64,000 nucleotides of DNA. Source: Yamagishiella unicocca. Taxonomy: Eukaryota > Chlorophyta > Chlorophyceae > Chlamydomonadales > Volvocaceae. Shown one piece after another: positions 16,339 through 38,814 of the stretch (positions are counted from its first letter, which is position 1; each line of letters opens with the position of its first letter). The notes beneath the pieces are model-generated. The model worked only from the letters and a program-made list of their open reading frames with translations, was not told where the DNA came from and did not search any database. Both the position numbers and the translations under genes were made by a program. The stretch lies in assembly GCA_003116995.1 (NCBI GenBank), contig BDSL01000004.1:1922001-1986000 (forward strand), written 5' to 3'.

Positions 16339-16708
16339 TGTCGTGACACAGTGCGTGATTGACACAGTGTAGTCACTTAGCTGTAGTCACGGTTCTAAGT
16401 GCGTGGACTGCAGTGTTGAAGTGGATCCGTTATTGCCGTACGAGCGTTGCGATGCGCCGGTGCTAAGGGACCGTGTTGTCCCTGTGCCAGGCAGTCCGCG
16501 ACTGCCTGGAATCGAACCCACAGTAATAATGTAACGAATACAGTGAGCTACTTCTCGTGAAGTCTGGCCCTTGCGCCATGAGGCAGGACCGGGATGCTAG
16601 GCTGAACTCGGACTCATTCTCGACCCAGTCCCTGACGTGCACTCCGAGCAGTGACAGTCATGCAGCTAGGTTAACCACGCCCGAGTGCGTGCGCGTATCG
16701 CCTTTACA
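16339..16708 (+). repeat. Element A, repeat A1 (370 bp)
   Basis: Matches A2 (27547-27666 plus 38510-38759) without a visible difference. It holds a perfect 10-bp hairpin stem (16487-16496 with 16500-16509) around the predicted transcript start near 16493. A TGTAA signal lies at 16530-16534. R would therefore run from about 16493 to shortly after the signal. Confidence 0.9.
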
Positions 16709-16720
16709 CAGTCGCGGACT
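16709..16720 (+). promoter_or_regulatory. Element A primer-binding site, self-priming type
   Basis: CAGTCGCGGACT immediately follows A1 and is the exact reverse complement of 16493-16504 inside A1. No tRNA-like TGG start is present. In Tf1-type elements the first nucleotides of the transcript fold back onto such a site and serve as primer. Confidence 0.75.
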
Positions 16721-17214
16721 CAAATACGTGAGCATCGGCGGCTCAACGGTGGACTTCAGCAAGACGCTGGAGTTGTCCAAGAACTTCGTTTAGACCGCGC
16801 CGAGCCAACCTGGCCGACAGGCCGAGTGGGAGCGAAGAGGGAGGTGGTGACGATCGCGATTTGTTGCCCTTCCTCACCCCAGCTTTGCCCGACAACGTCG
16901 CGGATAACCGCCAAGCACGTAGAGAACACCGTCAAGCACTTAGGGAGCGGTATCTTGCTGAGACTGAGGCTGAACTCCGCCACCGCCCATCGACTAGGGA
17001 CGAGCCAGGGACCAGTGGCACTGGAGACGACGCTGACACTGAGACCGGTGAGCCTGGGTCCTCTGAGGATCCTTCCCGGTTCTTAAGGGAGCAACAAGGT
17101 CAAGGCCCTCTAGCCGAGGGTGTCGAAGACCCTCTAGCCGAGGGCGCTGGAGCCGCGCCTATCCGTCCAGCCGCGCTTGTGCCCCGGGCACGCGCGGCGC
17201 ACGACGAGGAGAGC

Positions 17215-20200
17215 ATGAGCGCGAACAACTACCCGCCCAAATTTGGGGGTGGCTCGAGGGCGCTGAAGGAGTGGACGGCCCTCTTCAAGGCCTACATCGC
17301 CAACCTGAAGCTCAATGACAAGTGGGAACATCAGCTCATCCTCTATGAGCTGATCGTAGGGTCGGTTGGGACCGCCAGCTTTGCAGGATGGGTCGGACGG
17401 AACTCCGAAGGCATTCACCGCGCGCATTTTGTCAGCTGGGAGGCCAGCCCGGACTCTGCGCCGCCACAGCCCCAAATCGTCCGCCTCGCCTACGCTGGGA
17501 AGGCACACCGGAGTGCCCAGGGACCACTAGTGCCCTGCCTCGTCGAGTACTGGTTGGAGGCCGCCACCAAGTACTGCAAGGCGTTGGATCCCGAAGCGCG
17601 GGGGGAGATCGAGGCCTGGGTTCAGGCCCCCGGGATGTCGCTGGAGGACGCCGTGACCCATTTCCACGACCTCCAAGACCGACTGTTGGATGAGATCCTC
17701 ACGCCGCACGTACAGGCGGAGCACTTTCTCAACGGGCTCACCAACGCTGGGATGAAGGACTACATCTTCCAATGGTTCGTCCAGCAAGGCAAGCCGTTGT
17801 ACGAGCTGGACGACGTCGTGCAGCAAGCGAGACACTACGCCAATTTCGACACTGCCGTGCGGCGACGGCAGGTCAAGGAGGCGGAGGCTGGCGGTCGTGG
17901 CAAGGCGCGACAAGGCACGGCGGCGCTTGCCACCACGACGGCGCATGAAGACCCCGTTGTGCAGGCGCTGACGCAGCAGATGGCCAGCCTTCAAACGTCA
18001 TTGGCAACTATTGCGAGCGCTGTCAGCGCTGGCGCAACGCTGCATGGCCGCGGCCCGCCCCCTCCCAGTGGAGCGGGTGCCGGTGGCGTACGTGGTGGAG
18101 GCAGTGTCGCGGGGAGCTCGCGTGGAGCAAACAGGCAAAACGAACGGCGCCAGCGTCAGAATACGATGTCCTTCCCCGGGCCCATCACTGGCAGCATCGG
18201 CCGGTGCACTCACCCAGGCTGCCCGGCGCCCGGCACCCACAGCAGCGACTACTGCTTCATGCGGGCGCGAGAAGGGTACCCGACGGCCGTGCCCGGCTGG
18301 CCAGGCTCCGTGCAGGGGGGCCAGGCCAACCCTTCCCCGCAAGGTGGCCCCCAGCGCGTGATGGTCGCCCGTGGAGTGGTGCTGGAGCAGCCGGCCGCCT
18401 GGGACGAGGCAGCAGGCTATGGTGGTGGCAACCAGCTCTTGCCCGCCAACCTCGCGACTCGTGTCGTGCCGGCGCTGGCCGTGACGAAGCAGGACCAAGT
18501 GCGGCTGGAGCTGGCGCGCGCTGCTGCGCCGCCCACCTTGGTCTGTGGCCCATCACCGCCATCATCGGTTCAGGGGAGCGGAGTCGTGGGGTCGTCCCCA
18601 GTGACGGCGGTCACACACGAGCGGTTGCCGGCCAGCTTCGAGGCCCCATCGACGGTGCCGGAGCTTCCCAGCCGCCAACTACGACCCCGCCGCCCGTCGT
18701 CGACGGCGGGAGCAGGCAACACCCCTGTGCTGGTACCCGAAGCTTCACTGCCCCCGCCAATGCTGGCTGCGGCACCACCACCTCCCAGGCAGCTGAGCCA
18801 CGCGACAGCCTCCACCACACTGCTGGGGGGTGACAACGTGCCCCTGCGAGTGAGTGTCGAGGGCGACCTAGATCCTGACAGCTGCTACCAGTTGTTGCAG
18901 CTTTTCCTCCGCGAGAAGCTGCCCACGCTCCGGGACACGGCTGCTGAGCGGCATGCTGCCCTGCCCACGGCCACGCCGCCCGTGGCCACGGTGAGCTGCA
19001 CCGAGCAGCAACGGCTGCAGTACCGGGCCACGCTCGGAGAGACGGGCCTGCCATACTTTGCCCAGTCCTCGCCGGGCACCTCCGCAGTGGTCCATGCTGC
19101 CGGTGGGGGACTCATCGCCTTCCAGCGGCACCTGGTCGACAGCGCTTCGGAAGTGGAGCTCATTGCGGAGCGCGCTGCACGGCAGGCGGGCCTCACGTGG
19201 ACGAAGGACGGCACCCAGCTGGCCACCGCTGCTGGTGAGGGTGGTGTGCTCGGTCGTCTGGATGGTGGCCTCACAACCACCTGGTGCGCGAACACACACC
19301 ACGCGGTGACAAGCACCCAGGAGTGCTTTGTCCTGGCCGACAGTGTCTGTGATGGCTTGTTCCAGGTGCTGACGGGCTGGCGCCGCCTGCGCTTGCACGG
19401 CTCGGCCGTCCACACCTTCCCGGAGCCGCACGTGACATTCGTGCCGGCCCTCACGCGTGAAGGGCCCACCGACGGGCCCGTGGAGCTGGTGACCATGCCG
19501 TGCGTCAACGGCCTGGGGGGCGCTGCAGCATCCCGCTTGCGGCAGGTCAAGGAGGCCTGCAACTTGGTGCTACGGTCCTGCGTCACGGGGCTGTCCAGCC
19601 CGGCCTCACCACGCCAGGAGGAGAACCGTCAGAGGAGTGAGTACTGTGGGACGCGCAACCGGCACCGCACTTCCCGTGAACGGGTGCCTGTGCCGCCGCC
19701 ACCCTGGGACCGCCCAGCACCGTTGGGGCAGGCCGCCGAGAACGCCTCGCCCCCACGGGTGCAGCCTGGGGGCCACGTCTTCGCACGACTTGGGGAGCTG
19801 AGTGCCGGTTCACAGCAAGCAGCTTCGACGGCCACGGAAGCAGGACGCGGACGCCAGCCCCGGTACCCACCACCTCCTGAAACTGAGCAGCGTGACCAAG
19901 AATCTGACGACCGGGTGTGGCGAGCAACCCGGAGGCGCAGTCGGCGCCGACCCCGCAGCCCGGAGTGGCGCGGGCGGCCCCGGAGCCCGGAGTGGCGCGG
20001 GCGGCCCCGGAGCCCTATGCACCCACGGAGCCCTCGCCCTGTTCGTTCGCGCTCGTGCAGTCCGGTGCAACGACGCAGCCCAACACGCCTACGCAGCCCG
20101 CCACGTCGGGAGCACTCCCCAAGGCCGGCCGCCCGCATGCACCCACGTGATCCGCCCCGGCCGACACGCTCGGCAGGCGACCAGCTGTTGCCGTTGCCAG

Positions 20201-20859
20201 CTGTCAGCGTCGGGACGTCTGCTGGCCACATGGAGCGTGCACGCGGCAGTGCAGGCATCGTCACCCACCAGGTGCCGGCCCATGGGTATGCGATGCTACG
20301 GGCCGACCAGGCAGATGGCTCTTTCTTTGGGATCGAGGTGCAGGGAGCCTCTGGAGCCCTCCTTGGCACGCCCAACATGGTGGGTTTCGACACGGGCTGG
20401 ACGAACGCAGCGGCGGTCGACCTGGCCTGGGCACTATCTCAGCGCTTCCCCATCGACACGTGCTCGACGTTCATCCAGGCGTTCGACGGGCAGACGCTGA
20501 CAGCGGTGGGTTTCCTTCGGGGCTGCACGGTGCGGTTGCAAGACGCCCATGGCCGGGGGCCCGTCCACGAGGTCCCTATGGATGCCTACGTAGTGGTGAA
20601 CCTGACTGCCCCCCTGGTCCTGGGTCTACCGTACCTGGCGACCATGCATGGGCGCCTGGACTTTTCCAGCCGACCGCCACGGGTGCAATTCTCGCCACCA
20701 GGCAACTGGACGGGCGTGCCCATCGAAATCCCGTGTGCACTGCGCTCCGTCCCCACCCCGAGGTTCAGTGCTGCTGTCGGCGTGCCGCCGACAGCAGAGG
20801 GGAGTGCACTACCCCGCAACCGAGAGGCGCCGGCCATGGCCCGGGCGCCACGGCTGTAA
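17215..20859 (+). CDS. Element A Gag with two protease-like modules
   Basis: 1214 residues from the first in-frame ATG. The frame is open upstream to a stop at 16729 without another ATG. The N-terminal third is a Gag-like helical region (KEWTALFKAYIANLKLNDKW ... LEDAVTHFHDLQDRLLDEIL). A Cys/His motif CTHPGCPAPGTHSSDYC starts near residue 331. Two retropepsin-like stretches follow: LVDSASEVELI near 641 and, more convincing, GFDTGWTNAAAVD near 1057 with a later VLGLPYL. Between them lies an Arg/Ser/Pro tract (RSRRRPRSPEWRGRPRSP...) at about 19920-20170, resembling an SR domain and probably binding nucleic acid. The stop TAA overlaps the pol ATG as TAATG. Confidence 0.8.
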   Translation: MSANNYPPKFGGGSRALKEWTALFKAYIANLKLNDKWEHQLILYELIVGSVGTASFAGWVGRNSEGIHRAHFVSWEASPDSAPPQPQIVRLAYAGKAHRSAQGPLVPCLVEYWLEAATKYCKALDPEARGEIEAWVQAPGMSLEDAVTHFHDLQDRLLDEILTPHVQAEHFLNGLTNAGMKDYIFQWFVQQGKPLYELDDVVQQARHYANFDTAVRRRQVKEAEAGGRGKARQGTAALATTTAHEDPVVQALTQQMASLQTSLATIASAVSAGATLHGRGPPPPSGAGAGGVRGGGSVAGSSRGANRQNERRQRQNTMSFPGPITGSIGRCTHPGCPAPGTHSSDYCFMRAREGYPTAVPGWPGSVQGGQANPSPQGGPQRVMVARGVVLEQPAAWDEAAGYGGGNQLLPANLATRVVPALAVTKQDQVRLELARAAAPPTLVCGPSPPSSVQGSGVVGSSPVTAVTHERLPASFEAPSTVPELPSRQLRPRRPSSTAGAGNTPVLVPEASLPPPMLAAAPPPPRQLSHATASTTLLGGDNVPLRVSVEGDLDPDSCYQLLQLFLREKLPTLRDTAAERHAALPTATPPVATVSCTEQQRLQYRATLGETGLPYFAQSSPGTSAVVHAAGGGLIAFQRHLVDSASEVELIAERAARQAGLTWTKDGTQLATAAGEGGVLGRLDGGLTTTWCANTHHAVTSTQECFVLADSVCDGLFQVLTGWRRLRLHGSAVHTFPEPHVTFVPALTREGPTDGPVELVTMPCVNGLGGAAASRLRQVKEACNLVLRSCVTGLSSPASPRQEENRQRSEYCGTRNRHRTSRERVPVPPPPWDRPAPLGQAAENASPPRVQPGGHVFARLGELSAGSQQAASTATEAGRGRQPRYPPPPETEQRDQESDDRVWRATRRRSRRRPRSPEWRGRPRSPEWRGRPRSPMHPRSPRPVRSRSCSPVQRRSPTRLRSPPRREHSPRPAARMHPRDPPRPTRSAGDQLLPLPAVSVGTSAGHMERARGSAGIVTHQVPAHGYAMLRADQADGSFFGIEVQGASGALLGTPNMVGFDTGWTNAAAVDLAWALSQRFPIDTCSTFIQAFDGQTLTAVGFLRGCTVRLQDAHGRGPVHEVPMDAYVVVNLTAPLVLGLPYLATMHGRLDFSSRPPRVQFSPPGNWTGVPIEIPCALRSVPTPRFSAAVGVPPTAEGSALPRNREAPAMARAPRL

Positions 20860-23800
20860 TGATCCCTGAATCCAGCAGCGCGGGCATTGAAGAGGAGGGC
20901 ACTTGGCATGATGCTGAGGATGGCCTGACCCACGATGAACTGGCGCTGGCCGCACAGTGGAGGCGGCACCCACGCAGGCGAGCGCGTAGACAAGCTGCAC
21001 GGGAGAACCGACAACGAATGAAGCGGGAACAACGCTGGAGCAACCAATCGTCCCCCATCTGGCGTGATGCGTGGGACGGTGGAGACGCTTTCATGCGCGT
21101 TGATGCGGACGCAGCCATGGGTGCTGCGGACGAGGTGACGACCGAGGAGCTGCTGGATGCTGCGCTGGATCGTGCACAGCAACAATACCTTGCTGCTGTC
21201 GTACGGTACCAGCAGCGCAAGCACTACCTACGGTCACGCCAGGAACGTCGCCGGGCCCTTGACAACGCACGTCGGTGGTGGCGCAAGGAGCACCGGCGGC
21301 TGGTGGCTGCCCAGGCGGTCAGATGGCGGCAGGCTCGAGCAATCGCCGCCGCCACCCGCCAGGAGCAGAGGAGAGAAGTGAAGCGTCAGTTTCGTGAATG
21401 GCGCAACAAGCAGGGCCTGGGTGCTGACTGCGATGTTCGTGCACCAATCCCGGGCGCAATGCCGCGCACAGGGCTACGGGCTGGTTTCCGCGTCCACTCC
21501 AGGCCCTCGCTGCTGGCAGCCTTGCTGCTGCTACTGCTGGTGCTTGGCACGCAGGCGAGTGACAGGCCGCCGCCGGGGGACCCGTCGTGGCGGCGCAGGG
21601 TGACACCACCACCAGGCAATGCACGATTGGAGCAACTGGCACGGCTTGAGAAGAGTGGACAACTGGCACCGGAGCCCCGCAGGAGGACGGCAGTGACACT
21701 ACACCCACCACCTGCTGGCCAACCGGTAGCCACAGCGGCAACGGCTGCAACAGCCGCCACTGAGATGGGAACTAGCGGCAGCAGCGCTGCTGTCGCGACC
21801 ACGCCCTCGCTGCCCGGAGCGGCGACACCCGATGGACAACGTAAGCCCCTCGACGGACCGCAGTTCGTTAAGGATGTGGAAGGGGGGTACATTTGGTGTG
21901 AGCGTGAAGACTTGGAGCCGGGCGGACGAGCCCGTTTCAAGGAGCTGATGCGCGCGAATGACAGTGTGTTTGCGCGCTCGCTCAAGGACCTCGGCTGCTA
22001 CACGGGAGAGCTAGGGCCAGCCACGATCGAGCTTGTCCATGATGAGCCGATATTCGAAGCACCACGACGCCACTCGCCGCGCGAGTTGGCCATCCAGGAC
22101 GAGAAGTGTGCGGAGCTCCGGGACGCCGGCATCATCCGGCCTTCCAACTCTGCACGCTACGCGCTCAACAGTACGATGCCGGCAAAGAAGGATGCCGATG
22201 GCAACTGGACAGACGCGCGCTACTGCTGTGATGCACGACCACTGAATGCTGCCACGAAGGCAGACAAGTACCGCCCGCCACTGCCGGAAGACTTGTTCGA
22301 CAAGATAGGCACGGCCACGTGGCTGTCCAAGTGCGACTGTCGAGCGGCGTTTAACCAGATTCCAATGCGGGAGGAGGACCAGGAGAAAACGTCTTTCTGG
22401 TGGAAGGGCAGCCTGTGGTGCTACACGCGCAATCTGTACGGCCTGCGCAATGCCACCGCCTGTTTTCAACGTGTGATGGACCACCACATCCGGAAGGCGG
22501 GGCTACAGGACTGCTGCGTCGTTTTTGTCGATGACCTGCTGTGTTTTTCACGGACGGAGGAGCAGCATTTAATTGACCTGGGGCGGGTGCTCGACATGCT
22601 GAGGAGTATAAATCTGAAGCTGCACCCTGACAAGACCATCATCGCGGCACGGGAGGTGGAGTTTTTGGGGCACCTGGTCAGCGCCGACGGGCTGCGACCG
22701 ATGCAAGCCAAGATTGCCGCCATCCAGGCCATTCAACCACCTTCGAACAACACCGAGCTGTTGAGCCTGCTGGGGCTGATGAACTATTATCGGTGCTACC
22801 TACCACGGTACAGTGACCTGACGTCGCCCCTGACGGCGCTCACTCGCAAAACCGTCGTGTGGGGGCCTGATACGTGGCAGCCGGAGCACCAGGCTGCGCT
22901 GGAGACGCTCAAGGAGGAGTTCCGTCGTGAGGATTTGCTGCTGCGAAGGCTGCATCCCGATCGACCCATCATACTTCACACGGATTTCTCGTCGGTTGGC
23001 ATCAGTGCCGTACTGGGTCAGCTGGATGATGACGGCAACGAGTACATGTGTGCTTGTGTTTCTCGATCGCTCAACATACACGAGCGTAATTACATTTCAT
23101 ACAAGGGAGAGATGCTGGCGGCGTGCTGGGCGATGAAGACCCTGCGGCCGTACTTGCATGGCGTGCGTTTCACGCTCGTTACCGATCACGCGCCGCTGCT
23201 GTGGTTGATGGAAAATCGTACGCTCACTGGCCAATACGCGCGCTGGGCCCTGCTGATGCAAGAGTACGATTTTGATGTGGCTCACCGGCCTGGGGCGCTG
23301 CACCACAATGCGGACGCCCTCAGCCGCAGCCCTGAGGAGAGCTCCTGGGACGGCACCGGAGCTCGCCTTGACGAAGATTCAGATCCGAAGCCACCAGCGC
23401 CGAAGCTGGTGCCCTACACGCCGAGGGTGCTCATTACCGGGTTGAGCGGCTGTCTGAACGACCTGGTCGACGTAAAGGTGTTGCTGTCGCAGCAGCACCT
23501 AGACCAGTTACATGCCGTGCTGGCCACGGCTTCCGGAGTGCTTGTAAGCCCCGAGGAGCTGCTGGCGGGCGGCAATGGGAGGCTGACCGACAGCCTTGAG
23601 CGGCCAACCGATGGCACGATGACGGTGGCGCAACGGAACACGGCAGAGCTGCAGCGGACGTCGCTAAGGCTGGTGCGAGACCACCGTGTTGCCCTACGAG
23701 CTGCGACCTGCGAGGCCCCGCGTGCCCAGGTTTTTGGTGCCGCCGACGCGGGCGGCGCCACCACCGTTTCGCTCAACACGAGCCTGCTTTCGCACCATTT

Positions 23801-26800
23801 CCTCGAGCGAGCCCATTCCCAAGGCTTGGTAGTGGTGGAGCATGGCTGTGCCTCTGCTGCGGGGTTGGATGCGTGCCTGCGTGCCGGGTGGAGAGTGCGG
23901 AGGTACATGGCAACCGGCCTGGACCCTGCGCTGCTCCCCGTGCTGCAGAGCCGTGTCGACCACCTGCGAGCAGAGCACCCCGAGCAGCTGATGGCGCGGG
24001 CAACGCACAAGCCAGCCAGTCAGCTGCCGCTCGATGGACCTATCTCGGACAACGAACTGAGAGCAGCTGGCGCGATGGACGGTGATCAGTGGATGGTGGT
24101 GGGGCGAGCAAGTGGTGCGGAGGCTTCGAGTCGGTTACTCAGCCTCATTGGTGCGCTGCAACGACTGCAGCCGCGCCTCCTTCCAGGCTACCTCGTCGAG
24201 AGCGTGGAGAACAATCTGGTGGCTTTTGGCCGCAATCTCCTGCTCGACCAGGCGCAGTTTGGGCGCCCGCAGCATGCCCTTGCCACCTACTGGACCAACC
24301 TTGCCAACACCGTACAGCTGCGGCGCATCGCCATGGCCCATGGTCAGGTCGTGCGCATCCCGGAGCTACTGGAGTGCCTGCCTCAGCGGCTCGCACCGGT
24401 GACAACGGGTCCGCTTGCGCCACCATACCATCCTTGCAATACCCCGGGCCGACCGGCGAAAGTGTTGCCGCCAGGCGAGCTGGCAACCATGGACATCGAC
24501 GACAGGAGTGGCTCCCCTTCCAGGCTCAGCGAATCTGAGTTGGAGTCATTGCTGTGGGTGGCCCCCGGCACGACGGAGGCCAAAGCCGTCACCGCAGCGC
24601 AGCGCCGAGCAGCGCTGTTGAGCGGCGTGTCAATACCCACAGCCACGCACTTGCTGGCATTTACACAAGCCCTCCAGCGAGCGTTCCTGACCCCCCACCA
24701 TATGGCCAATCTGCGACCGCTGCTGCGCACCGACCCGGTGCCACCGCTGGGGGGGGAGTGTGCAGAGGCGGAGGCACCGAAGTCGCTGCTGGTCCTCGCC
24801 ACGCAAAGGCGAGTAGATCCGCACACATGCACGATGCACGTGTGCGCAGTCACAGAGGCGATAGACGCAGCGAATGGCATGGGACTGAGTGATGTGTGGG
24901 ATGATGACGAGTGCATGTATTACATCAGGCATGGTGCGGCCAGCAAGGAACACAGCCGCTCCGAGTTGCGCAGGGTAGTGCGACGGGCTGCCTCGTATAG
25001 CGCGAGAGGAGATTCGATTGTTCGCGAGATGGCCAACGGCACCACCCGTGTGGTGCCGCATCCAGACAAGCGTAGGGGGCTAGTAGAGCAAGTCCATGCC
25101 ACGAACGGGCATTTCGGGACGCGACGCACGCTGGCGCTGCTCCAGCTAGGTTTCTGGTGGCATGGCATGTCCCGGGATGTGAGTGCGGTGGTCAGCGCGT
25201 GCAAGGTGTGTGATCAGGCTAACACGACGGGAGGCGTTCTTCCGGAGGTACTGCAACCTCTACCCGTGCGTGGACCCTTCTACCGTTGGGGTGTAGACCT
25301 GGCTGGGCCGCTCCCTAAGACCAAGGATGGGTTTACTTATGTCATGGTCGCCATTGAGCATTACACGAAGCACATAGAGCTAGTTCCGCTGCGTGACAAG
25401 ACAGCGGACAGCACGGCTCAGGCGTTTCTTCAGAATGTGCTTGCCCGGTTCTCAGCGCCTGCAGAGGTGTTGACGGATCAGGGAACCGAGTTCCAAGGGG
25501 CGTTCGATGAGTTGTTGCGGCAGTGCTTGATTGACCACCGTGAGACCTCGGCGAATCATCCGCAGGCGGATGGTGCGGCCGAACGGATTGTGCAGGTGGT
25601 GAAGAAGGGTTTACGTAAATACTGTGCTGTACGGCAACGGCCGGACTGTTGGGATCGGGATTTGCCATGGCTTGCTTTGGGGTATCGCTGCTCGCCGCAA
25701 GCTGCTACGCGCTTGTCTCCTTACCACTTACTGTACGGTGTTGACCCAGTGGTTCCCCCGAGCGTGCGAGAGCGTTTCAGTGAGCAGCTGCATTTCGAGC
25801 GGCCTGAGAGGGTGCACCAGTTGTTGGAGATGCGGTCGGATGAGCTGCGTAGGCACATGCCAGCTGCAGGTGGCAACTTGGCGATTGCACAGCACCGAGA
25901 TAAGCGGCGGTATGCGATGATTCGTTCCGGTACCTACCGGCCCAAGCTTGAAAGGTTCACATCAGGCGACTACGTGTACGTGCTGCTGCGCAATCGGACG
26001 AGCACGCTGCAGTTGCCCACGAAGGGCAATGTGTTGCGAGTGGTGGAAGTGTCTGGAGAGGGCGTCGCAACGCTGCTGGGGCGTTGTGGCACCGAGCGGA
26101 AGGAGCACATTAGCAACCTGGCTCCTTGTCATCTGCCAGACTTAGACCCGGTGATTGATCCGCGTCTAGCTGTACCGGCGTATGATCTAGCGTGTGAGTT
26201 GTGCGGCTTCCCGGACCAGGGCGATAAGATGCTGCTGTGTGATGGTTGTGGGACGGGTTGGCACCTGTACTGCTTGCGACCTGCACTGAAGAGCGTGCCG
26301 CAGGGCACGTGGCTCTGTCCCCGCTGCGGTGAGGCTGGCATCACGGTCAAGCAGGTAGAGGCTAAGGAGGTTAAGGAGCGGGAGGCGCCCACGAGTGGTG
26401 GTTTCCTTTCTGCGGTTCAGAAGCGACGGCACCAGTACTTTGCCACCTTGGATGGGCGCGCTGTCTTGCGCAAGTACCGTGATCCGCTGACGATGCTGCA
26501 GACGATTAAGCCAGGGACAGTGCGTTATCTCGGTGCTATGGCCGACGGCAGGCCGTTCGAGGTGCGTTATGATGATGGAAGTGTTGAGCGAGTGGATATG
26601 CGGGGACTGCGAAGTTGCCTGCGCGAGGAGAAGGAGGTGAAGGGGATGGAAGCCAAGCGGAACGGCGGCCGGCGCTCTGCACTTGCGGTCGTCGCTTCGG
26701 AGCTGCCCGACACGTGGGCGCTTGGGGACGCCGTGGGAGTCACCGCTGCGTTGCGCTGGCTGATGCCTGGGGCTGAGCCATCCACTGCCCACGTGGGGCG

Positions 26801-27544: not shown

Positions 27545-27546
27545 GC

Positions 27547-27666: not shown

Positions 27667-27717
27667 TGTCACGCCAACTAACGTGGTGCTGTACAGCTGA
27701 CGTGGCTCACTGGCATT
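27667..27717 (-). repeat. Element B, repeat B2 (51 bp)
   Basis: Identical to 28069-28119. Its outer end is the 3' terminus of element B. One extra base (27718) lies between it and A2, as expected at a joined cDNA end. Confidence 0.9.
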
Positions 27718-27718
27718 A

Positions 27719-28066
27719 GGGAAAGACTACGCACCCTAGGTAGGACCGGCTAGCCTCAGCTGCCTCCAGGTAAGGGCGTCCGGGGTTCACAGATTCGCGA
27801 CGCGAAAGGTTACAAATAGGATTTCACGACTCCTCAACCGGTTCTGCGTTCTGTATGCTACTCAGTGTCTGTATACCACAGAGTGCGAGACGCAGATAAC
27901 TGGTCTCGCACTGATGCTGGCCTTATCGCCAGTCTCAACGCTCCAGGGAAGCCCGCCCAGGTCACGCCTAGCGCAGCCGAACCCCCGGTACTCACAAACA
28001 GTACTCGAAAAGCCTAAAATAGCGCGTTCACCACATGATATGGCAAGCACACGAGGTGGCGTGACA
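27719..28066 (-). repeat. Element B, repeat A2 (348 bp)
   Basis: Matches A1 at 38158-38505 without a visible difference. Followed towards pol by GC (28067-28068) and B1. Confidence 0.9.
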
Positions 28067-28068
28067 GC

Positions 28069-28119
28069 TGTCACGCCAACTAACGTGGTGCTGTACAGCT
28101 GACGTGGCTCACTGGCATT
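28069..28119 (-). repeat. Element B, repeat B1 (51 bp)
   Basis: Lies between the polypurine tract and the GC spacer. It has the same length and position as B1 of element A. Confidence 0.9.
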
Positions 28120-28130
28120 CCCCCCCCAGC
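28120..28130 (-). promoter_or_regulatory. Element B polypurine tract
   Basis: Minus-strand GCTGGGGGGGG, 83 nt after the pol stop. The same motif sits in element A before its B1. Confidence 0.75.
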
Positions 28131-28213
28131 ACGAAGCCAGCGGAAAAGTGCTGGTTGCCAGTTGCACACTCTCCCACAACCAGAAAAACTTGAAACGGGC
28201 AAGACAAAGCCCC

Positions 28214-31200: not shown

Positions 31201-34200
31201 TTACAGCTCCTCCACAACAAAACTTGACGCGCTCACTGCCTAGGGCAGCCTGAGCCTGTTGCACAATCCGGAGCACGGCCTGCTGGGCACCAACGTCGGC
31301 TGGCTCCCAATAAGCCACAATAAGAACTGGAAGGCTGCCTGGGGCAACCGCGAGCAAGTCAGCGGTGCTGACCTTGCTGACGTTCTGCGGCAGGCTGACA
31401 AGAGCTGAGCTCCAGGCGGTCGGCGGAAGCAGATCCACGTGCCGATCCGAAAGCTGCTGACAGCGACGCTCCACCAGGCCTCGGGCCTGATCATTGACAT
31501 CAGAATAAAGGTAGGAATGCACAGGAATACCGCTGCGGAGGCAGACCTCGAGCCCTGATGCCAACCCACCAAGCGGCTCATAAAGAACAACACCATGACG
31601 GAACGCCTGATCGTACCATGTTGCTGCTGAAGCTGACTGCGGTGAAGACGATGATGGTGAGGTTGCCGCGGCTGCCGCTTGGCGACGAAGCCGGCGCGCT
31701 GCGCTCCACTCTCGAGCGACGCTGCGTAGGCGATCACGCTCCACCCTCACATCCTCAGCTGGATCGTTGGGCGGCGGAAATGCAGCCTCATAAGCCCAGC
31801 CATTCCAGCCAGACGCCATCTCCTCGGGAGACGGTAAGAAATCCTCACTGAAGGAAGCGACCCGATGGGCGGATGCAAGGGCTACACTTCGAACCTCACA
31901 GGCTTTGGCGCTGGACGCCAGGGCGGCAGGCGTGACGGTAACCTCCGCTGTGTCAACGTCGATGCGGGCCCCGGAGCCATCGATGGTGCTGGGCACGGGA
32001 TGTCGTGATAGCACATCCGCATTCTGATGCAGCACTCCAGGACGATGCTCGACTGTGAAGTTGTACTCTTGAAGTACCAACGCGAAGCGCGCATACTGAC
32101 CAGTTAAGCCCTCGGAGCTCATAAGGTAAAGAAGCGGCTGATGGTCAGTCACCAGCCTGAATGGCTCATCAGAACCTACTAAATGATGCCTGAACATTTT
32201 CATGGCCCAGACCGCGGCCAACATCTCCCCCTTGTAAGAACTGTAGTTGGATTCATGCTTGTTCAAAGAACGGCTGATCGACGCACACATATACTCGTTA
32301 CCGTTGTCATCCAGCTGACCCAAAACCGCCGCAATGCCCCGATTGGAGAAGTCGGTGTGAAGAATCAACTGCTTGCTGTAGTCGATGCGCCTCAGAACAA
32401 CGTCAGGGCGCGAAATGATCTCCTTGAGAGAGGCGTGCGCACGCTCCTGCTCCGGACCCCACTGCCACGGTACACCTGCCTTGAGCAGGTGGTTGAGGGG
32501 CGCCGCTAGCTCGCTCATCCTTGGGATGTAGCACCGGTAATAGTTTACGAAGCCAAGCTGGGTACGCAGTTCTGAAACGTTCTTGGGCGGCGGCAGAGCC
32601 AGGATGGCGGCGACCTTGGCGTGATGAGGCGAGATACCAAACGAAGAGAGATTATGACCTAAATACTCCACCACATCGGCTCCGAAGATGGACTTGTCAG
32701 GGTGAGCCCGGAGCCCACACGCATTGAGAACATCCAAAACCCGAGATACCACCTCCACGTGCTCCTCAGCAGTGTCGGTAGCTATCAGTAAATCATCGAT
32801 AAAAGCTACGGCCCATTGATCCAGCCCAGCCTTACGCAGCTCGTAGTCCATGCGGCGCTGAAAAGCTGCTGACGCATTCTTGAGACCATAGGGCATGCGT
32901 GTGTAAGCGATAAGGCGGTTGCCGCACCAGAACGCCGTCTTGCCTTGATCCTCAGGATGAATTGGAATCTGAAGGAAGCCCTGGCGCATATCCAACTTGG
33001 AAAAGAAACGCGCCTTGCCAACGCGCTGAAAAATGTCCTCGGGACGGTGCAGACCATACTTGTCCGGCTCAGTCACCTTGTTGACGGGACGATAATCCTG
33101 GGCCATGCGTGCCGCAGTCCAGAGACCGGTGGCCTCGTCCTTCTTGGCGGCGATGACCGGGTTGACGGCGGCAAGTGTAGGGCCAGTCCACTCTACACAT
33201 ATGCCAGGCTTCAATAACTCGGCCGTCTTCTCACGGATGATCTCGGTCTCCTTGGGGCTGTAGCGACGTGGCGACTGGATGACCGGCTTGGCGGTTGTCA
33301 GATTGAGCCGAAATGGCCCCATATCACCACAATACCCTGGTAACTCGTCCATGCTGTAAGCAAACGCTGAACCCTTATGCTCGCGTACCGTCGCCTGAAG
33401 CTGCGCCTTGAGCGCAGGGTCGAATTCTCTCGCATTGCCCCAGATCCAGCCACCCTCTGGGTCCTTCTCATAAGACTCATGGGCGGTTGCCGCCAGGTGG
33501 CCATCAAAAGAGTAGCCATCGATGGCGGCTAGTGCGCTGGCTTGGCCAGTGCCGTAGCCTAAGTGCGAGCTCGATCTGCTCCCCGTGAAGCTGAAAGGAA
33601 TGCCGTGCAGAGCCGCACCGACCACCTCAACCTGCTGCATGGCCTGAAGCCCCTCCGTACCGTAACGGGAACCGCCGGTGGCTCCGACGCCGATGGAGAA
33701 CGCTAGCAGGAGGGCTGTGACAAAAACGAGTGAGAGCGCCGCTGACCAGGTGCGCTTGGCGCCGATGATAATGGGCTGCGGACGGCTTCCTCGTTTCTTG
33801 CGCTTACCCTCGCGCCTTGGGCGCTCGGGCTCCTTGTAGACTGGCTCCTTCTTACTGAGCTGCTGGTGAAGCGCCTCAGCCACCTTGTTTGCTTGCCCGC
33901 TGGCCCACGTGACCGGCCAAGCGACACAGCTCAGGACGCCGCCGCATGGCTTGACCGTGTTGCTGGCGGCGCCCGTGCTCGCGTGGACCGGATCGCCAGT
34001 GTCGGGGCCTATGGACTGCTGCTGAGGCTTACCATCCGCGCTGAGCTCCTCTGCGCAGCAGGAACAGCTTGACGGCTTGACCGTGCTCGGGCTGCTGCTC
34101 GTCTGCTGCTGAGGCTCGCCCATCAGACCCCCACCGTGCGGCTTGGCCGCGTTGCTGCAGTCGGGGCTGGGGCTGAACGTGTCCGTGTGCTGGGCGGATT

Positions 34201-36340
34201 CACTTGCCGGATTAATGACCTCGGGCTTGCCACCAACGCTGGGCTCTGCTGATGATGAGGCGTGGCAGGAGCAGCTCGACGGCTTGACCGTGCTGGGGCT
34301 CCTGCTCTGCTGCTGCTGAGGCTCGCCGCTGCTGTCACTTCCCCCCCCCAGCTTTGTGTCGATGACCTCGCTGAAGCTGGAACAGCAGGCGGCGAAGCAG
34401 TTAACCGAAGCGGGGCGCACACCTGGGGCGTTGCGCATGAGGATCGTGACCAGCAGCTTTGGGTGCTCCAGCACGTTGGGCCGGAAATGAAGCTGCGGCA
34501 CGGGATAGGTGGTGACGAAATCGGCCACCGCGTGCATCTGAGGGTTGGACGCCAAAAAGTCGAACAGCGGTGTGTTCTTGACGACCAGCGTGGGCGTCAT
34601 GGGTAGGCGCACTGAGTGCCGTGACCCAGGCAGCAGGCACACGCTGAGCTGCTCGTGGACGAGCTCGTGCGTCACCTCCACCTGATCCCCGCCCGTTGCT
34701 AGCTGCTTGCTTGTGGGGCGCACGGGTAGCCCGTACGCCTCGACCATCCCCTGCGTGATCAGGTTGATGGTTGCGCTGTGATCACGCAGGCTGCGTGGGA
34801 AGAAGCTAGTGCTGCTTCCGCCCTTGCTGCTGATGCTGACACTGCCCTCCGCATAGTAAAACATGTGCTGAGGTGTGCCAAAATAGCGACTGGCCTCTGC
34901 ATCTGCTGCCAGCAGCTGCTGCTTGCGCTGCGGCGTGAGACTGATGATGGTGTCGAAAGCGCCCTTGGGGTCGCCACTCACAAAATATTCAACATCGTTG
35001 GCCGCGCGGTGCTTCGCCGCCGGCTCTACCTTGGCCGTTGCTGCCACCGCTGCCTGCTCGCCGTCGCTGCTGCTGGCGGATGACTGCGGCTGGGCCGCAG
35101 ACGGGCTGCTGTCCTGCTCCTCCGACCACCCCGGCTGCTGGGCCGACTGGTCAAACGCAGACGCGAGCCCTTTCGTGAGCCGCGCCTCGAGATCTGCTAA
35201 GCCGCTTAGGGCTACCGGGACGGTTATCTTAATTTTGGCCGCCACCGTCGGGACGCTGCCTTCCTTGGCGACGCCGCTGGGAATCTTGCGCGCCTTGGGC
35301 ACATCGAACTTAAGCTCCGGAATGGGCGCCGGTGTGAAGCTGACGGGAACCTGCTGCCTCTTGAGCGTGGCGCAGGCTGCGCCGAAGCCCTGGGGGCTCG
35401 CGCTGTACTCGCCGTGACTGGCCGCCTCGCAATACGTGACAAGCGCCGGGTGGCCCGGCGCATACAGCTCCTCCGCAAAGTCATCCTCAAAATGTGCCGT
35501 GGCCGCTGCAGAGGGCTGCTGCGCCGCTTGGGCCTGCGGTGCGGGCTGCTGCTGCTGAGCGCCGCCGGCGTTCTGCTGCGCCCGATATGCGCGCAGGTTG
35601 TTGTCAAACGCTGCCTGGAGCAGACCCGAGGGAGCCCGGTAGCCAGGCGGTGCCATCTCTGGGTTGCGGATGAAGCACACCCCGGAGTGCGGGCGTGCGC
35701 AATACTCGCAGCGCGGGCGGAAGCCACCTGCGGTGCCCTGCTGCTGCTGTTGCTGCTGCTGATGGTGAGGCGCCTGCGCCGGTTGCTGCTGCTGCTGATG
35801 CTGCTGCTGGGCGATCGGCTGACGCTGCTGCTGGAGGGGCTGCTGTCGCCGGCCCTGGTCCGCTTGCCACTTGGTGGCTGGCGCAGACGCAGTAGCCACG
35901 ACGGAGCCTGCCGGCAACAGGCCCTTGCTGACAAGGAGCTGCTCAAACAGTCCCGATAGCTGCTCGACACTGAGGGACGCGCCCGTGGCGGCCAGTGCCA
36001 CTCCCCCCGTTTGCACTGCTCGGTCGTATGGCTCAGGTTCCAGCCGTGGTTGTTGCACCACAGCTTGGCGCGCGCCTGCCTGGTCGAGCCGCCGCTGGCC
36101 GCCGATGCTGTGCTTGTGGACGGCTGCTGGCTCACGCTGCTGCTGCTGCCGGAGCGTGCCGCCTGGGGCGGCTGGGCTGCTGATGCCGCTGACGAAGACG
36201 GGCGAGCAGCCGGCATGGCGCCAGGCTGCGTTGAAACCGCTGCTGCCGCCGCGTAGCGCTGGTTGCTCCATGCGACCTCGGCGTCGGCGGCAATCTCCCT
36301 GATGCGCCCAAACCACTCCTCCTGCGTGACTAGGCCCCAC
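28214..36340 (-). CDS. Element B Pol frame: zinc knuckle, protease-like, RT, RNase H, C5-MTase-like, DDE integrase, PHD
   Basis: An uninterrupted minus-strand frame of 2708 codons. The first part overlaps gag and is probably entered by a -1 shift near 36003-36008. Residues counted from 36340: Gln-rich region with CEYCARPHSGVC; degenerate protease-like RDHSATINLITQGMVEAYGL; hydrophobic segment SLVFVTALLLAFSIGVG (nt 33675-33755); RT (~957-1241, FIDD); RNase H (~1317-1451); C5-methyltransferase-like region (~1577-1884: VLYEPLGGLASGLEVCLRSG, RAWTNLADVDLL) lacking the catalytic Cys; H2C2 finger and DDE integrase (~2011-2195: GLDLCGP, CTDQGSEW, LSERAV); PHD finger (~2388-2438); and a decayed C-terminal methyltransferase-like fold without the SPWF motif. 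The domain order matches element A's Pol. Confidence 0.88.
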   Translation of the reverse strand: MGPSHAGGVVWAHQGDCRRRRGRMEQPALRGGSSGFNAAWRHAGCSPVFVSGISSPAAPGGTLRQQQQREPAAVHKHSIGGQRRLDQAGARQAVVQQPRLEPEPYDRAVQTGGVALAATGASLSVEQLSGLFEQLLVSKGLLPAGSVVATASAPATKWQADQGRRQQPLQQQRQPIAQQQHQQQQQPAQAPHHQQQQQQQQGTAGGFRPRCEYCARPHSGVCFIRNPEMAPPGYRAPSGLLQAAFDNNLRAYRAQQNAGGAQQQQPAPQAQAAQQPSAAATAHFEDDFAEELYAPGHPALVTYCEAASHGEYSASPQGFGAACATLKRQQVPVSFTPAPIPELKFDVPKARKIPSGVAKEGSVPTVAAKIKITVPVALSGLADLEARLTKGLASAFDQSAQQPGWSEEQDSSPSAAQPQSSASSSDGEQAAVAATAKVEPAAKHRAANDVEYFVSGDPKGAFDTIISLTPQRKQQLLAADAEASRYFGTPQHMFYYAEGSVSISSKGGSSTSFFPRSLRDHSATINLITQGMVEAYGLPVRPTSKQLATGGDQVEVTHELVHEQLSVCLLPGSRHSVRLPMTPTLVVKNTPLFDFLASNPQMHAVADFVTTYPVPQLHFRPNVLEHPKLLVTILMRNAPGVRPASVNCFAACCSSFSEVIDTKLGGGSDSSGEPQQQQSRSPSTVKPSSCSCHASSSAEPSVGGKPEVINPASESAQHTDTFSPSPDCSNAAKPHGGGLMGEPQQQTSSSPSTVKPSSCSCCAEELSADGKPQQQSIGPDTGDPVHASTGAASNTVKPCGGVLSCVAWPVTWASGQANKVAEALHQQLSKKEPVYKEPERPRREGKRKKRGSRPQPIIIGAKRTWSAALSLVFVTALLLAFSIGVGATGGSRYGTEGLQAMQQVEVVGAALHGIPFSFTGSRSSSHLGYGTGQASALAAIDGYSFDGHLAATAHESYEKDPEGGWIWGNAREFDPALKAQLQATVREHKGSAFAYSMDELPGYCGDMGPFRLNLTTAKPVIQSPRRYSPKETEIIREKTAELLKPGICVEWTGPTLAAVNPVIAAKKDEATGLWTAARMAQDYRPVNKVTEPDKYGLHRPEDIFQRVGKARFFSKLDMRQGFLQIPIHPEDQGKTAFWCGNRLIAYTRMPYGLKNASAAFQRRMDYELRKAGLDQWAVAFIDDLLIATDTAEEHVEVVSRVLDVLNACGLRAHPDKSIFGADVVEYLGHNLSSFGISPHHAKVAAILALPPPKNVSELRTQLGFVNYYRCYIPRMSELAAPLNHLLKAGVPWQWGPEQERAHASLKEIISRPDVVLRRIDYSKQLILHTDFSNRGIAAVLGQLDDNGNEYMCASISRSLNKHESNYSSYKGEMLAAVWAMKMFRHHLVGSDEPFRLVTDHQPLLYLMSSEGLTGQYARFALVLQEYNFTVEHRPGVLHQNADVLSRHPVPSTIDGSGARIDVDTAEVTVTPAALASSAKACEVRSVALASAHRVASFSEDFLPSPEEMASGWNGWAYEAAFPPPNDPAEDVRVERDRLRSVAREWSAARRLRRQAAAAATSPSSSSPQSASAATWYDQAFRHGVVLYEPLGGLASGLEVCLRSGIPVHSYLYSDVNDQARGLVERRCQQLSDRHVDLLPPTAWSSALVSLPQNVSKVSTADLLAVAPGSLPVLIVAYWEPADVGAQQAVLRIVQQAQAALGSERVKFCCGGAVRTAPAPIEEQRQVDSAVSEAWGSPVLVDAARLGSGVHQLYRAWTNLADVDLLRETLSSATRPAGPGVQQHLGVNRVAPVTQQQLRAPYYASEAQGQLVNAVMHAAVSADSTSAAPSAACPVRDLRTGEYTSLRPEESEALLGLMPGTTDSPRLSSQQRRALLSGATDVTYLASLITVCSVLAVEGASGFPSQVATVAVTAPLQQVSFCTALSQRGQAAPNEFVVFATGALDPEGAANAGSATEPWTDQGLLSLLQTGHLPQGLSEVEVKRVRQRAQRYRWQGEQLYVLGLDGRARIVPRPAERGELILKMHEQSGHWGVKRTVALLLHSYWWRGINSDVAETVRHCAACSRVRATFNSRPGVLNPLPIGGLFYRWGLDLCGPFNKTAQGSRYVMVCVEHFSKFVVLIPLPSKHAAETAFAFRQHILGRYGACAEVCTDQGSEWKGEFASCLQEALIDHRQTSANHPQANGLSERAVRSVKEALTKMANASGGYANWDEQLPSIMLGYNCSVQGSTKLCPYTIVHAVDPVIPPAIKDRFGPELNLDDPEGVARSVLVRAAAVRKHMAMAGGNLSIAQHRDRLRYARLRGGGLDPALRKVDIGDYVYYRNATSTSSLEANARPEILRVVETRPSGVVVLEGKCGGRLTAHVTHVAPCHLPITDDQLDPRLAKPPLTLACEVCRMPDSEEWMLLCDSCGTGWHTYCLKPPLEGIPQGTWICGGCERKGVTVKQVEAKSAPRAPSLLHPPPSLAKFQGAFAMRAHRRGRSRSKAEAGVVMYAGKHGNVHHFTVEYPDKTSELVSLRELRPRLMVPGAPEPAATASALQPAPSVIIDISVASTASEREALAEVIDLGGALSVFAPLGLSEQTAVWARRQGCTLRHGVPGVGPAALSTEELTRAGKSGVNMGVIWLEGLVSEVGQVADVAVAHAREAVIIRVCREYLWNAGEARLRWLRTRQAEGRLLILPCVTCIWLVLMAGGERRRGFIRRSAGPVPLF

Positions 36341-37131
36341 TTGGACAGCACACGCTCGTTGACCACCGGATCCAGACGCTTGACGAAGTTGGTGGCAAAT
36401 TCATAGTCGCTGATGCCCAGGTACGGCCTGTACGTGAGCGCCTCCTGAAGATAGGCAGTCGGTGCCGTGTTGCCTTGCTTGAGGACGGCGTAGCGCTGCC
36501 GATAGTCGGCCTTCTTCTCAGGCTCGAAGTGCTGTTGCAGCTGCTCCAAGTAGTACTGTGCGAGATGATGGCCGTACAAGGTTGCCGCGGCTTGACCGGG
36601 CTTGGCCTGCAGCCACTGGGTGGCCTTGGCAATCAGCGAGTCGCGCACGTCACCGTGGTAATGCTCAAACCGCGAGCCCAGCTTGGGCGCCTCGTTGAGA
36701 CGATCGAGCATAAACTGCGCCGGGATCTGGTCATACGAAAAGCGATGCCTGCTGCTGGCCTGCAGGACGAGCTCCTCAACGTAGCGTTTCATCGCCGGGA
36801 GAGACTCGTGGCTCCATGGCTCCATGGGCCAGGCGCGCGAGGCTGCATAAGACGAGGACAGCTGATCCATCTCGCCGTCTGAGTAGTAGCCGCTGCTGAC
36901 TGCCTGCACCGGAACGGCGGAAGGGGGCAGCACAAACGGCGAAGCGAGAACGGAAACGGGCGGTGCTGCTGCTGCTGGTGCGGGGGGCTGCTGGCCTACC
37001 TCCGCTGCAGACTGAGGTCCCGTTACTTCGCCTTGCTGACTCTCTGTGTCAGACTCAGACCTAGCAACCCCTAGCAGATGAAGCGGGTTGTTGGCTAAGT
37101 CAGGGAGCTCCCCACTCTCTAGGCTGGACAC
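35224..37131 (-). CDS. Element B Gag frame (meaningful to about 36000)
   Basis: The frame opens at a GTG. No ATG lies between the upstream stop and this point, and the first in-frame ATG is at 36870 (MDQLSSSYAASRAWPMEPW). The Gag-like helical core reads YLEQLQQHFEPEKKADYRQR ... YLGISDYEFATNFVKRLDP. A Cys/His cluster CNNHGWNLSHTTEQC comes next. Immediately after it the frame degenerates into Ser/Arg-rich text, while the pol frame becomes sensible, so a -1 shift around the G6 run (36003-36008) is inferred. The 5' end may instead come from splicing to the leader ORF at 37630-38103. Confidence 0.7.
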   Translation of the reverse strand: MSSLESGELPDLANNPLHLLGVARSESDTESQQGEVTGPQSAAEVGQQPPAPAAAAPPVSVLASPFVLPPSAVPVQAVSSGYYSDGEMDQLSSSYAASRAWPMEPWSHESLPAMKRYVEELVLQASSRHRFSYDQIPAQFMLDRLNEAPKLGSRFEHYHGDVRDSLIAKATQWLQAKPGQAAATLYGHHLAQYYLEQLQQHFEPEKKADYRQRYAVLKQGNTAPTAYLQEALTYRPYLGISDYEFATNFVKRLDPVVNERVLSKWGLVTQEEWFGRIREIAADAEVAWSNQRYAAAAAVSTQPGAMPAARPSSSAASAAQPPQAARSGSSSSVSQQPSTSTASAASGGSTRQARAKLWCNNHGWNLSHTTEQCKRGEWHWPPRARPSVSSSYRDCLSSSLSARACCRQAPSWLLRLRQPPSGKRTRAGDSSPSSSSVSRSPSSSISSSSNRRRRLTISSSNSSSRAPQVASARAASIAHARTPGCASSATQRWHRLATGLPRVCSRQRLTTTCAHIGRSRTPAALSSSSPHRRPKRRSSPLQRPRHILRMTLRRSCMRRATRRLSRIARRPVTASTARAPRASAQPAPRSRGSRFPSASHRRPFRSLSSMCPRRARFPAASPRKAASRRWRPKLR

Positions 37132-37629
37132 ACGTGAGCGCGCCCGTGAACCCTCCCCTCGTTGAGGCGAGAGAGCGCCTACTGCACTGCGCAGAAGTGA
37201 GACAAGCCCCCCCTGTGCACTTGCCCTACGTTGACGGGCCTGCGTGCTACCTTGCCCAGGTGGCTGCTCTACGGCTTGCCCCCGGCCCCCAAGCTGAAGG
37301 AGATTTTCACCCCCTGACTGGCTCCTAGTCAGCCGACCCCTCCCGCCCTGCTCACGGACTGGACGCGGAGGAAGCTGCTGAATTGCTTGTGCGACTGGGG
37401 GTCGAGGCTCGGGACGAACAGGCGAATGTAGGCGTATACTGTTACTTGATTGCCCTCGCTCTTCAGCCAGCGCTGCTAACAGGGCCTTGAGCCCTCAAAT
37501 TACGTAAACTAGAAGCCTGGGGCTTCACACTCTGCCCGTGCCTCCAAAATTACTGCTCAGCTAGCCTAGGCCTTGAGCCCTCGGCACAGCTAACCTCTCA
37601 AGCAACCACGGCCTGGTGCCAGAGTGGGA

Positions 37630-38103
37630 CTACTCGGTCTTGGCGCCCGACGGAAACCAGGACAACTTCATGTCGCCATCGCGCCGACGAAGCTGGACCA
37701 GCACCGCCTGCTCCCGAATGACCTCGCACTCGTGCAACTGATGAGTGCCTTGCCCGTGAATGGGGCAGCCCACGACCGTCACGCTCTCCTTCCGGACCTC
37801 AAAGCTCGGCCGCAGGAAAGGCTTGCTCAGCCTTGGCGCCTTGGGCGCTCGCGGGGGCGAAGGGATGCGGCGCTTGGCGCCTTCCTTGATATGCTCGTCT
37901 AAAGACTTCTTGTTGCGTAGATGCTCGGACACTGCAGAAGTGGGCGAGCGCAACGGCGATCTTGAGTCTCGGATCAGGCCTTGGGCCCGTAAGACGAAAG
38001 CACACGAAAGGCCTGGGGCCTGTTGTTTCCACGCTAATGAACGAGAGCTTGACTCCCGCTGTCCAAGGCCTGGGGCCAGAATTTCGCGCTGGGCGCGACT
38101 CAC
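37630..38103 (-). CDS. Small leader ORF of element B, unknown function
   Basis: 157 codons from a GTG between the primer site and gag. It is rich in Arg/Ser/Pro and contains a Cys/His cluster CPIHGQGTHQLHEC near its C terminus. A GTGAGT donor-like sequence sits at its start. It has no in-frame ATG before the Cys/His cluster, so it may be a spliced Gag exon or not translated. Confidence 0.35.
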   Translation of the reverse strand: MSRAQREILAPGLGQRESSSRSLAWKQQAPGLSCAFVLRAQGLIRDSRSPLRSPTSAVSEHLRNKKSLDEHIKEGAKRRIPSPPRAPKAPRLSKPFLRPSFEVRKESVTVVGCPIHGQGTHQLHECEVIREQAVLVQLRRRDGDMKLSWFPSGAKTE

Positions 38104-38137
38104 TCTTGGAGACGATGACGACGACGACGACAGCGAT

Positions 38138-38157
38138 AGTTATCTGCGTCTCGCACT
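38138..38157 (-). promoter_or_regulatory. Element B primer-binding site, self-priming type
   Basis: These 20 bp abut A1 and are a perfect inverted copy of 38321-38340 inside A1. That internal segment also forms a 10-bp hairpin stem with 38342-38351. No tRNA-type TGG site is visible. Confidence 0.8.
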
Positions 38158-38505
38158 GGGAAAGACTACGCACCCTAGGTAGGACCGGCTAGCCTCAGCT
38201 GCCTCCAGGTAAGGGCGTCCGGGGTTCACAGATTCGCGACGCGAAAGGTTACAAATAGGATTTCACGACTCCTCAACCGGTTCTGCGTTCTGTATGCTAC
38301 TCAGTGTCTGTATACCACAGAGTGCGAGACGCAGATAACTGGTCTCGCACTGATGCTGGCCTTATCGCCAGTCTCAACGCTCCAGGGAAGCCCGCCCAGG
38401 TCACGCCTAGCGCAGCCGAACCCCCGGTACTCACAAACAGTACTCGAAAAGCCTAAAATAGCGCGTTCACCACATGATATGGCAAGCACACGAGGTGGCG
38501 TGACA
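38158..38505 (-). repeat. Element B, repeat A1 (348 bp)
   Basis: 5' repeat of element B. On the minus strand a TGTAA signal (38253-38249) lies 87 nt downstream of the predicted transcript start near 38340, so R would end soon after it. Confidence 0.9.
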
Positions 38506-38509
38506 CGCC

Positions 38510-38759
38510 GGTGCTAAGGGACCGTGTTGTCCCTGTGCCAGGCAGTCCGCGACTGCCTGGAATCGAACCCACAGTAATAATGTAACGAATACAGTGAGCT
38601 ACTTCTCGTGAAGTCTGGCCCTTGCGCCATGAGGCAGGACCGGGATGCTAGGCTGAACTCGGACTCATTCTCGACCCAGTCCCTGACGTGCACTCCGAGC
38701 AGTGACAGTCATGCAGCTAGGTTAACCACGCCCGAGTGCGTGCGCGTATCGCCTTTACA
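38510..38759 (+). repeat. Element A, repeat A2, right part
   Basis: Remaining 250 bp of A2 after element B and the duplicated CGCC (38506-38509). It equals 16459-16708 of A1 by position. Confidence 0.9.
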
Positions 38760-38810
38760 AGTCTGTTGCCTGCATACGGGGATTGCCGTTGCCAGGACTG
38801 TGTCGCGACA
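38760..38810 (+). repeat. Element A, repeat B2 (51 bp)
   Basis: Copy of 27494-27544. Forms the 3' end of element A and is followed by the TGGC target duplication (38811-38814). Confidence 0.9.
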
Positions 38811-38814
38811 TGGC

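Follow-up and report, generated by a model that had tools for sequence, protein, structure and literature searches.

Ordinary gypsy elements carry whole long terminal repeats (LTRs) at both ends, Tf1 and Tj1 likewise have ordinary LTR ends, PAT/kangaroo elements are not known to make a target duplication, and in the standard account of retroviral integration it is the ends of the linear complementary DNA (cDNA) that react. The present analysis concerns two nested retrotransposons, named elements A and B, in a 64,000-nt stretch of the green alga Yamagishiella unicocca (the window; assembly GCA_003116995.1, contig BDSL01000004.1, positions 1,922,001-1,986,000 of the forward strand). PAT, Toc3 and Kangaroo encode a tyrosine recombinase and carry split direct repeats in the order A1-B1-A2-B2 (PMC4157794). 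In Tf1 and Tj1 the primer-binding site is complementary to a 5' region of the same element's RNA, an arrangement known as self-priming (PMC4600332). REM1 of Chlamydomonas reinhardtii, likewise a Ty3/gypsy element of a green alga, is described with a truncated integrase part in reverse frame (PMC2774666).

The window elements share split direct repeats with PAT, Toc3 and Kangaroo but contain a DDE integrase and are flanked by 4-bp target duplications instead. They are probably self-primed retrotransposons of the Ty3/gypsy type in which the attachment site of the integrase no longer lies at the cDNA ends but has shifted to an internal position about 51 bp from the left end. For this assembly, both the layout and the duplications are secure.

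Split repeats and target duplications in four families

Element A is delimited by the tetranucleotide TGGC on its left (16335-16338) and right (38811-38814). Its features, all on the plus strand, start with the 370-bp repeat A1 (16339-16708), which begins with TGTCGTGACA and is followed by two long open reading frames (ORFs), a polypurine tract (PPT) of eight G residues (GGGGGGGG, 27486-27493), the 51-bp repeat B1 ending in TGTCGCGACA (27494-27544) and a GC dinucleotide (27545-27546). The second A repeat, A2, is interrupted by element B (27547-27666 and 38510-38759) and runs through a clean junction into the 51-bp repeat B2 (38760-38810), the right end of the element. A repeat comparison found A1 equal to A2 and B1 equal to B2. 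These repeats and the outer TGGC copies had been described in a first-pass annotation of the DNA and were confirmed. The GC is the spacer of an uncut two-sided site, TGTCGCGACA-GC-TGTCGTGACA, B1 is the start of the 3' LTR, and A1 and B2 are the A and B halves of a split 5' LTR.

For the first ORF (16732-20859, stop to stop), Pfam gives no more than a weak match to gag, with an E value of 0.14 that misses the cut-off. The second (20151-27404, stop to stop) encodes Pol with reverse transcriptase (22221-22673), RNase H (22956-23267), an H2C2 zinc-binding match (25062-25226), the rve integrase core (25272-25559) and a PHD finger (26193-26327). Reverse transcriptase, RNase H and DDE integrase thus follow each other in a single ORF, which is the Ty3/gypsy order and differs from the reverse-frame integrase part described for REM1 (PMC2774666). 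The DDE integrase already assigned to Pol in the first-pass annotation was verified by the Pfam matches to H2C2 and rve and by a triad of D1716, D1776 and E1811, located by motif. A tyrosine-recombinase retrotransposon of the PAT/kangaroo type, or a gypsy Pol riding on one, would account for split direct repeats in the same order. However, a DDE integrase is present, the duplications measure 4 bp and no Pfam match to a tyrosine recombinase was found in the four long ORFs; this origin was rejected on these grounds and is regarded as exceedingly improbable. The likeness to PAT/kangaroo, suggested earlier as a convergence, is confined to the layout.

Element B (27667-38505, minus strand) sits in A2 of element A between two copies of CGCC (27663-27666 and 38506-38509). 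It repeats the plan of element A with different repeat sequences. Read along the minus strand, the left end A1' (348 bp, 38158-38505) precedes the genes, a G8 polypurine tract (28120-28127), B1' (51 bp, 28069-28119), the GC spacer of the uncut site (28067-28068), A2' (348 bp, 27719-28066), one extra base (27718) and B2' (51 bp, 27667-27717) as the right end. Its Pol ORF (28214-36400, stop to stop) contains reverse transcriptase, RNase H, H2C2, rve and PHD matches, of which the rve match (31.5 bits) lies just below the Pfam cut-off of 32.6.

Further copies were searched in the whole assembly (133.4 Mb, 1415 contigs) with the A repeat, the B-GC-A region and both repeats of element B as probes. 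A third family, C, was obtained with a 22-base site pattern and a fourth, D, with an integrase search, and D served as a further probe; families C and D are assigned to Ty3/gypsy by integrase similarity alone. All copy numbers are lower bounds because the searches score best candidates only. The four families diverge in sequence and share one plan, A1 on the left and PPT-B1-GC-A2-j-B2 on the right, j being the junction between A2 and the last B. B measures 51, 51, 50 and 50 bp and A 370, 348, 522 and about 496 bp in families A to D, and the PPT lies directly before B in all four. This recurrence in three more families supports the earlier idea of a gypsy lineage with a permuted integration substrate. 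Two more integrase families (60% and 38%) were represented by 601-base stretches (L094, L095) in which no 3' end was seen.

Both outer ends could be read in 49 insertions (28 of family A, seven of B, nine of C and five of D). An exact 4-bp target duplication directly outside the start of A and the end of B was present in 42 of them, namely 25 of 28 in family A, 4 of 7 in B, all 9 in C and 4 of 5 in D. A 5-bp match occurred in none of the 49, and random re-pairing of left and right flanks gave a mean of 1.1 duplication matches. Like Ty3/gypsy elements, these insertions have a short target duplication of fixed length. The family-A result bears out the first-pass prediction that other copies would have like ends and a 4-bp duplication. 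The outer ends fall within a single LTR, at B|GC|A. The usual pair of identical terminal LTRs, with outer limits set by the PPT and the primer site, was not found, and ordinary B-GC-A LTRs at both outer ends, the arrangement that would have contradicted that annotation, were not seen among the copies read. Nothing beyond the oddity of the layout speaks for misassembly or chance repeats, which are hardly credible and were rejected because matched duplications recur at numerous loci across four families.

Rows with one end missing or unread were left out of this count. They are L018 (without B2), L038, L039, L041 and L044 in family A; L053, L056, L057, L059, L060 and L061 in family B; L063, L064, L066, L069, L071, L072, L077-L081, L083 and the left flanks L090 and L091 in family C; and L101, L102, L103/L104 and L110 in family D. 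Duplicates of the same site were merged (L032 with L040 by overlap, L034 and L035 with L033 by their common flank), and the search matches L001-L008 were not tabulated separately. Two full-length family-A copies were seen, in the window and on C8. Ten short derivatives (L011-L020), nine with exact duplications, are mostly about 2.5-3.5 kb long, L016/L045 being longer, and form a non-autonomous subfamily.

Primer site, internal palindrome and junction

Directly after A1 of element A lies a putative primer-binding site, CAGTCGCGGACT (16709-16720), whose exact reverse complement, AGTCCGCGACTG, is found within A at 16493-16504. The corresponding 20-nt site of element B (38138-38157) is the exact reverse complement of 38321-38340 inside A1'. 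In all four families the site directly after A matches part of A in this manner, over 12, 20, 15 and 14 nt in families A to D. No other match of equal length was found in control windows (787 for A, 779 for B and 517 for C, the families that the control covers). The arrangement points to self-priming, with this part of A presumably contained in the RNA. Tf1 and Tj1 have a similar self-complementary primer site. In elements of the Tf1 type the RNA begins at the primer and is cut by RNase H to prime synthesis; in the present families the junctions suggest an RNA start further upstream.

Since the PPT lies directly before B and the primer site directly after A, the LTRs of the cDNA are expected to have the form B-GC-A. 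The predicted left cDNA ends of the four families are AGTCTG, AATGCC, AGTCTT and AGTGTC and the predicted right ends TTTACA, TTTCCC, AATCCT and GTGCT. These linear ends share no TG...CA, whereas the inner site contains GACA-GC-TG in all four families (CGACA-GC-TGTCG in A, TGACA-GC-TGTCA in B and C, TGACA-GC-TGACG in D). Its two CA ends stand 2 nt apart, as they do where a retroviral circle is joined. In the genomic copies the cDNA's 5' LTR is divided at B|GC|A, with its A at the left border and its B at the right border of the element.

Which LTR had been opened was read from the uncut sites in the fetched loci: sequence context allowed 27 distinct ones to be placed, and all 27 lie in the 3' LTR. 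For this count L077-L080, which start alike after A (duplication presumed), were pooled with L072, and one family-C palindrome site (C899) was left out; four further uncut sites (L041, L053, L066 and L069) stand outside it. The PPT is located 39-41 nt upstream of the uncut site in 24 of the 27, and 112-214 nt upstream in L040, L063 and L064, with foreign sequence between. The end of A was readable in 21 of the 27 and in none was it followed by the primer site and internal sequence. One locus, L071, was flagged automatically, but the match stops after a 15-nt copy of the primer site. Short foreign sequences, for example CATCCCCATCACTTTCCTCCTA and its relatives, interrupt B or A near the palindromic site in three families (L040, L041, L049, L053, L063, L064, L066, L069 and L073) and look as if another transposon prefers these palindromes.

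The placement of the uncut sites bears on a preformed two-LTR circle in which integrase cuts either of two equal B-GC-A sites, as in the circle-cleavage proposal for spumaviruses. Junction j resembles the junction of such a circle, and the integrases of foamy virus and HIV-1 cut palindromes of this kind in vitro (PMC1180852, PMC1905944). Random cutting of the circle, however, predicts that half of the copies read A-j-B-GC-A-genes-B, and none of the 27 placed uncut sites has this mirrored form. Randomly cut two-LTR circles were rejected for this reason, and cleavage of a preformed circle at either site is considered unlikely.

An ordinary gypsy family of the same genome (L096) served as control. 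Its 3' border reads PPT-AA-TGTAAGG, the LTR starting 2 nt after the PPT. A probe across this border gave 47 matches, of which 10 begin at the start of the probe and keep the PPT side, 20 begin exactly at TG, 7 begin at most 10 bases before TG and 10 begin further in. The family follows the conventional LTR plan, as read from the sequence of the 3' border and otherwise from match coordinates; its chromodomain was recognised by eye.

Junction j is clean in the window copy of element A and variable in other copies. Across the 49 insertions it is clean in 16 (nine of family A, six of C, one of D), has one extra base in five (three of A, one of B, one of C), is otherwise altered in 27 (16 of A, five of B, two of C, four of D) and is absent in one (C112). 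The single extra base equals the first base of the primer site in four of the five cases. The variants comprise trims, some of them at microhomologies, added bases, primer copies, inverted pieces and captured DNA; there is one insertion of 53 nt and one of about 820 nt. A copy of 10-14 nt of the primer site lies at j in six of the 49 (L013, L022, L033, L054, C30 and, with one mismatch, C4:380), and also, outside the 49, in L071 (15 nt) and L104 (14 nt). The copy continues into the sequence upstream of the primer in L033, C30 and L104, as though the template had been RNA lying 5' of the primer. In four of the 49, A stops precisely where the primer ends and is then joined to the inverted end of A, with the turn at position 166 of A in L026 and L043, 185 in L058 and 268 in C9; such a joint is expected between primer and minus-strand DNA. 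L021 and L023 look like truncated cDNAs, and L016 together with L045 shows jumbled and tandem element pieces between A2 and the last B within a single CAGC duplication.

No substitutions separate A1 from A2 in 11 of the 13 copies compared (12 of family A and one of family B). Substitution-free copies include L014 and L017, in which A2 lacks 20 and 16 end bases. As the ends of A2 are trimmed while A1 and A2 remain unsubstituted, j was made at insertion and not by decay; it looks like an end-joining scar of that moment. The same comparison bears on the reading of these copies as ordinary LTR elements whose 5' LTR has lost B and whose junctions were altered by later decay. In family A the unit A-B would indeed form a TG...CA repeat, but the PPT lies before B and not before A, the plan is common to four families and 49 insertions, j varies between copies whose A1 and A2 are mostly the same, and most duplications are intact. 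Later decay of normal LTRs was rejected on the strength of this repeat identity and the intact duplications, and we give it practically no credence. Without host end-joining, j could also form if the reverse transcriptase, on finishing A, jumped to where B starts. Several junctions are of a kind that would suit such a jump, with primer copies, extensions beyond the primer into upstream sequence (L033, L100, L104) and fold-backs where the primer ends. The trims at microhomologies, the 53-nt and about 820-nt insertions and the jumbled concatemer fit end-joining better, and such a jump is judged improbable as the source of the joint.

A proposed integration route

The features described above can be arranged into a self-primed route with cleavage at the internal site. 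The RNA would start inside A1, and a stretch of A would pair with the site directly after A1 and prime the minus strand; this priming step is suggested by the exact complementarity of 12-20 nt in four families and by the captured primer copies. Reverse transcription would then yield a linear cDNA with a B-GC-A LTR at each end. The integrase would act at the near-palindromic ...CA-GC-TG... site of the 5' LTR, so that the start of A and the end of B become the integration ends, inserted with a 4-bp stagger; the ends and the duplication are observed and the catalysis is deduced. Host end-joining would presumably seal the cDNA ends, where A2 stops and B2 starts, and leave scar j. Sealing could take place either before integration, in a circle, or after it, as repair of a chromosome break, and the sequence fits both. 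The bias towards the 5' LTR and the nearly constant B length of 50-51 bp suggest that the integrase measures a fixed distance from the left cDNA end when it cuts, and that sealing is a separate event. Judged by the anatomy of the copies, a mechanism of internal-site cleavage and end-joining appears well supported. The variable A2/B2 scar, the self-priming site and the recognition of the split LTR as the 5' LTR go beyond the first-pass annotation.

Several points weigh against this route. The mechanism is read from genomic copies alone, and every copy derives from one genome assembly. Seven of the 49 insertions are without an exact duplication, four differing by one base and three by two, and family B is the weakest in this test with four of seven. 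The extra base at j of the window element B differs from the first base of its primer site. Locus L018 has no B2: its right end is A2, flanked by an AGCG duplication, so an A end may sometimes serve as an integration end; an ACA microhomology could provide an alternative explanation. C112 (L051/L052) and L038 look like A-genes-B without A2-B2, and L053 ends in an inverted start of A. Finally, end-anchored cleavage, the sole account of the missing mirrored copies, is a guess.

Relatives, accompanying features and meaning

A protein search returned 291 relatives, and 112 of the 120 listed carry a PHD finger, as counted from the list. Their sources include Tetrabaena, Gonium, Astrephomene, Volvox africanus, Haematococcus, Klebsormidium and the liverwort Calypogeia. 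In an alignment of integrase and PHD finger, 18 relatives chosen from the 120 listed are 42-62% identical to the window protein. The window elements have the integrase core and PHD finger in common with the PHD-finger Ty3/gypsy lineage of green algae and plants. No relative was confirmed in the viral contigs scanned.

The C-terminal stretch of Pol in element A, VLDPWSGTGTIAKVL ... VASPWF (26748-27401), resembles by eye what we take to be methyltransferase motifs, and a second, presumably methyltransferase-like motif lies between RNase H and integrase (23601-25061). The Pfam search found no methyltransferase in Pol. A similar C-terminal stretch is readable in family D (L093). Elsewhere in the window, diverged direct similarity (71-77%) links 40947-43189 with 14127-15661, the two flanks of the element cluster, and a tandem array with units of about 27 bp occupies 50686-51077.

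The internal site also invites comparison with systems in which two ends abut. In circles of the IS30 and IS3 type a DDE enzyme acts where left and right ends abut (PMC9333248, PMC3299598); there the abutted junction is made by the transposase, whereas here it is encoded within each LTR. A circle-junction route was proposed for retroviruses in 1984 and dropped once a linear precursor had been shown (PMC11054761). The palindromic CA-nn-TG cleavage uniting two attachment ends is alike in the two-LTR circle model, but the cut site here lies inside the LTR and not at the joint of a ring, and genomic copies show such products. No description of this layout was recognised in the excerpts of the literature searched, a coverage that stops short of Repbase and the original REM1 paper.

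Because split direct repeats also occur in elements with a DDE integrase, a tyrosine-recombinase element cannot be recognised by its layout alone. Programs that search for LTRs as equal pairs may misannotate families of this kind. The genomic copies hold both an uncut internal site and the scar of the joined cDNA ends, and many are recent as judged by their identical repeats. It appears fairly likely that the lineage has abandoned the linear cDNA ends for an internal two-sided site, so that each insertion would need host end-joining. With these copies it becomes testable whether an integrase of the retroviral type can make do with an internal palindrome and rely on end-joining by the host.

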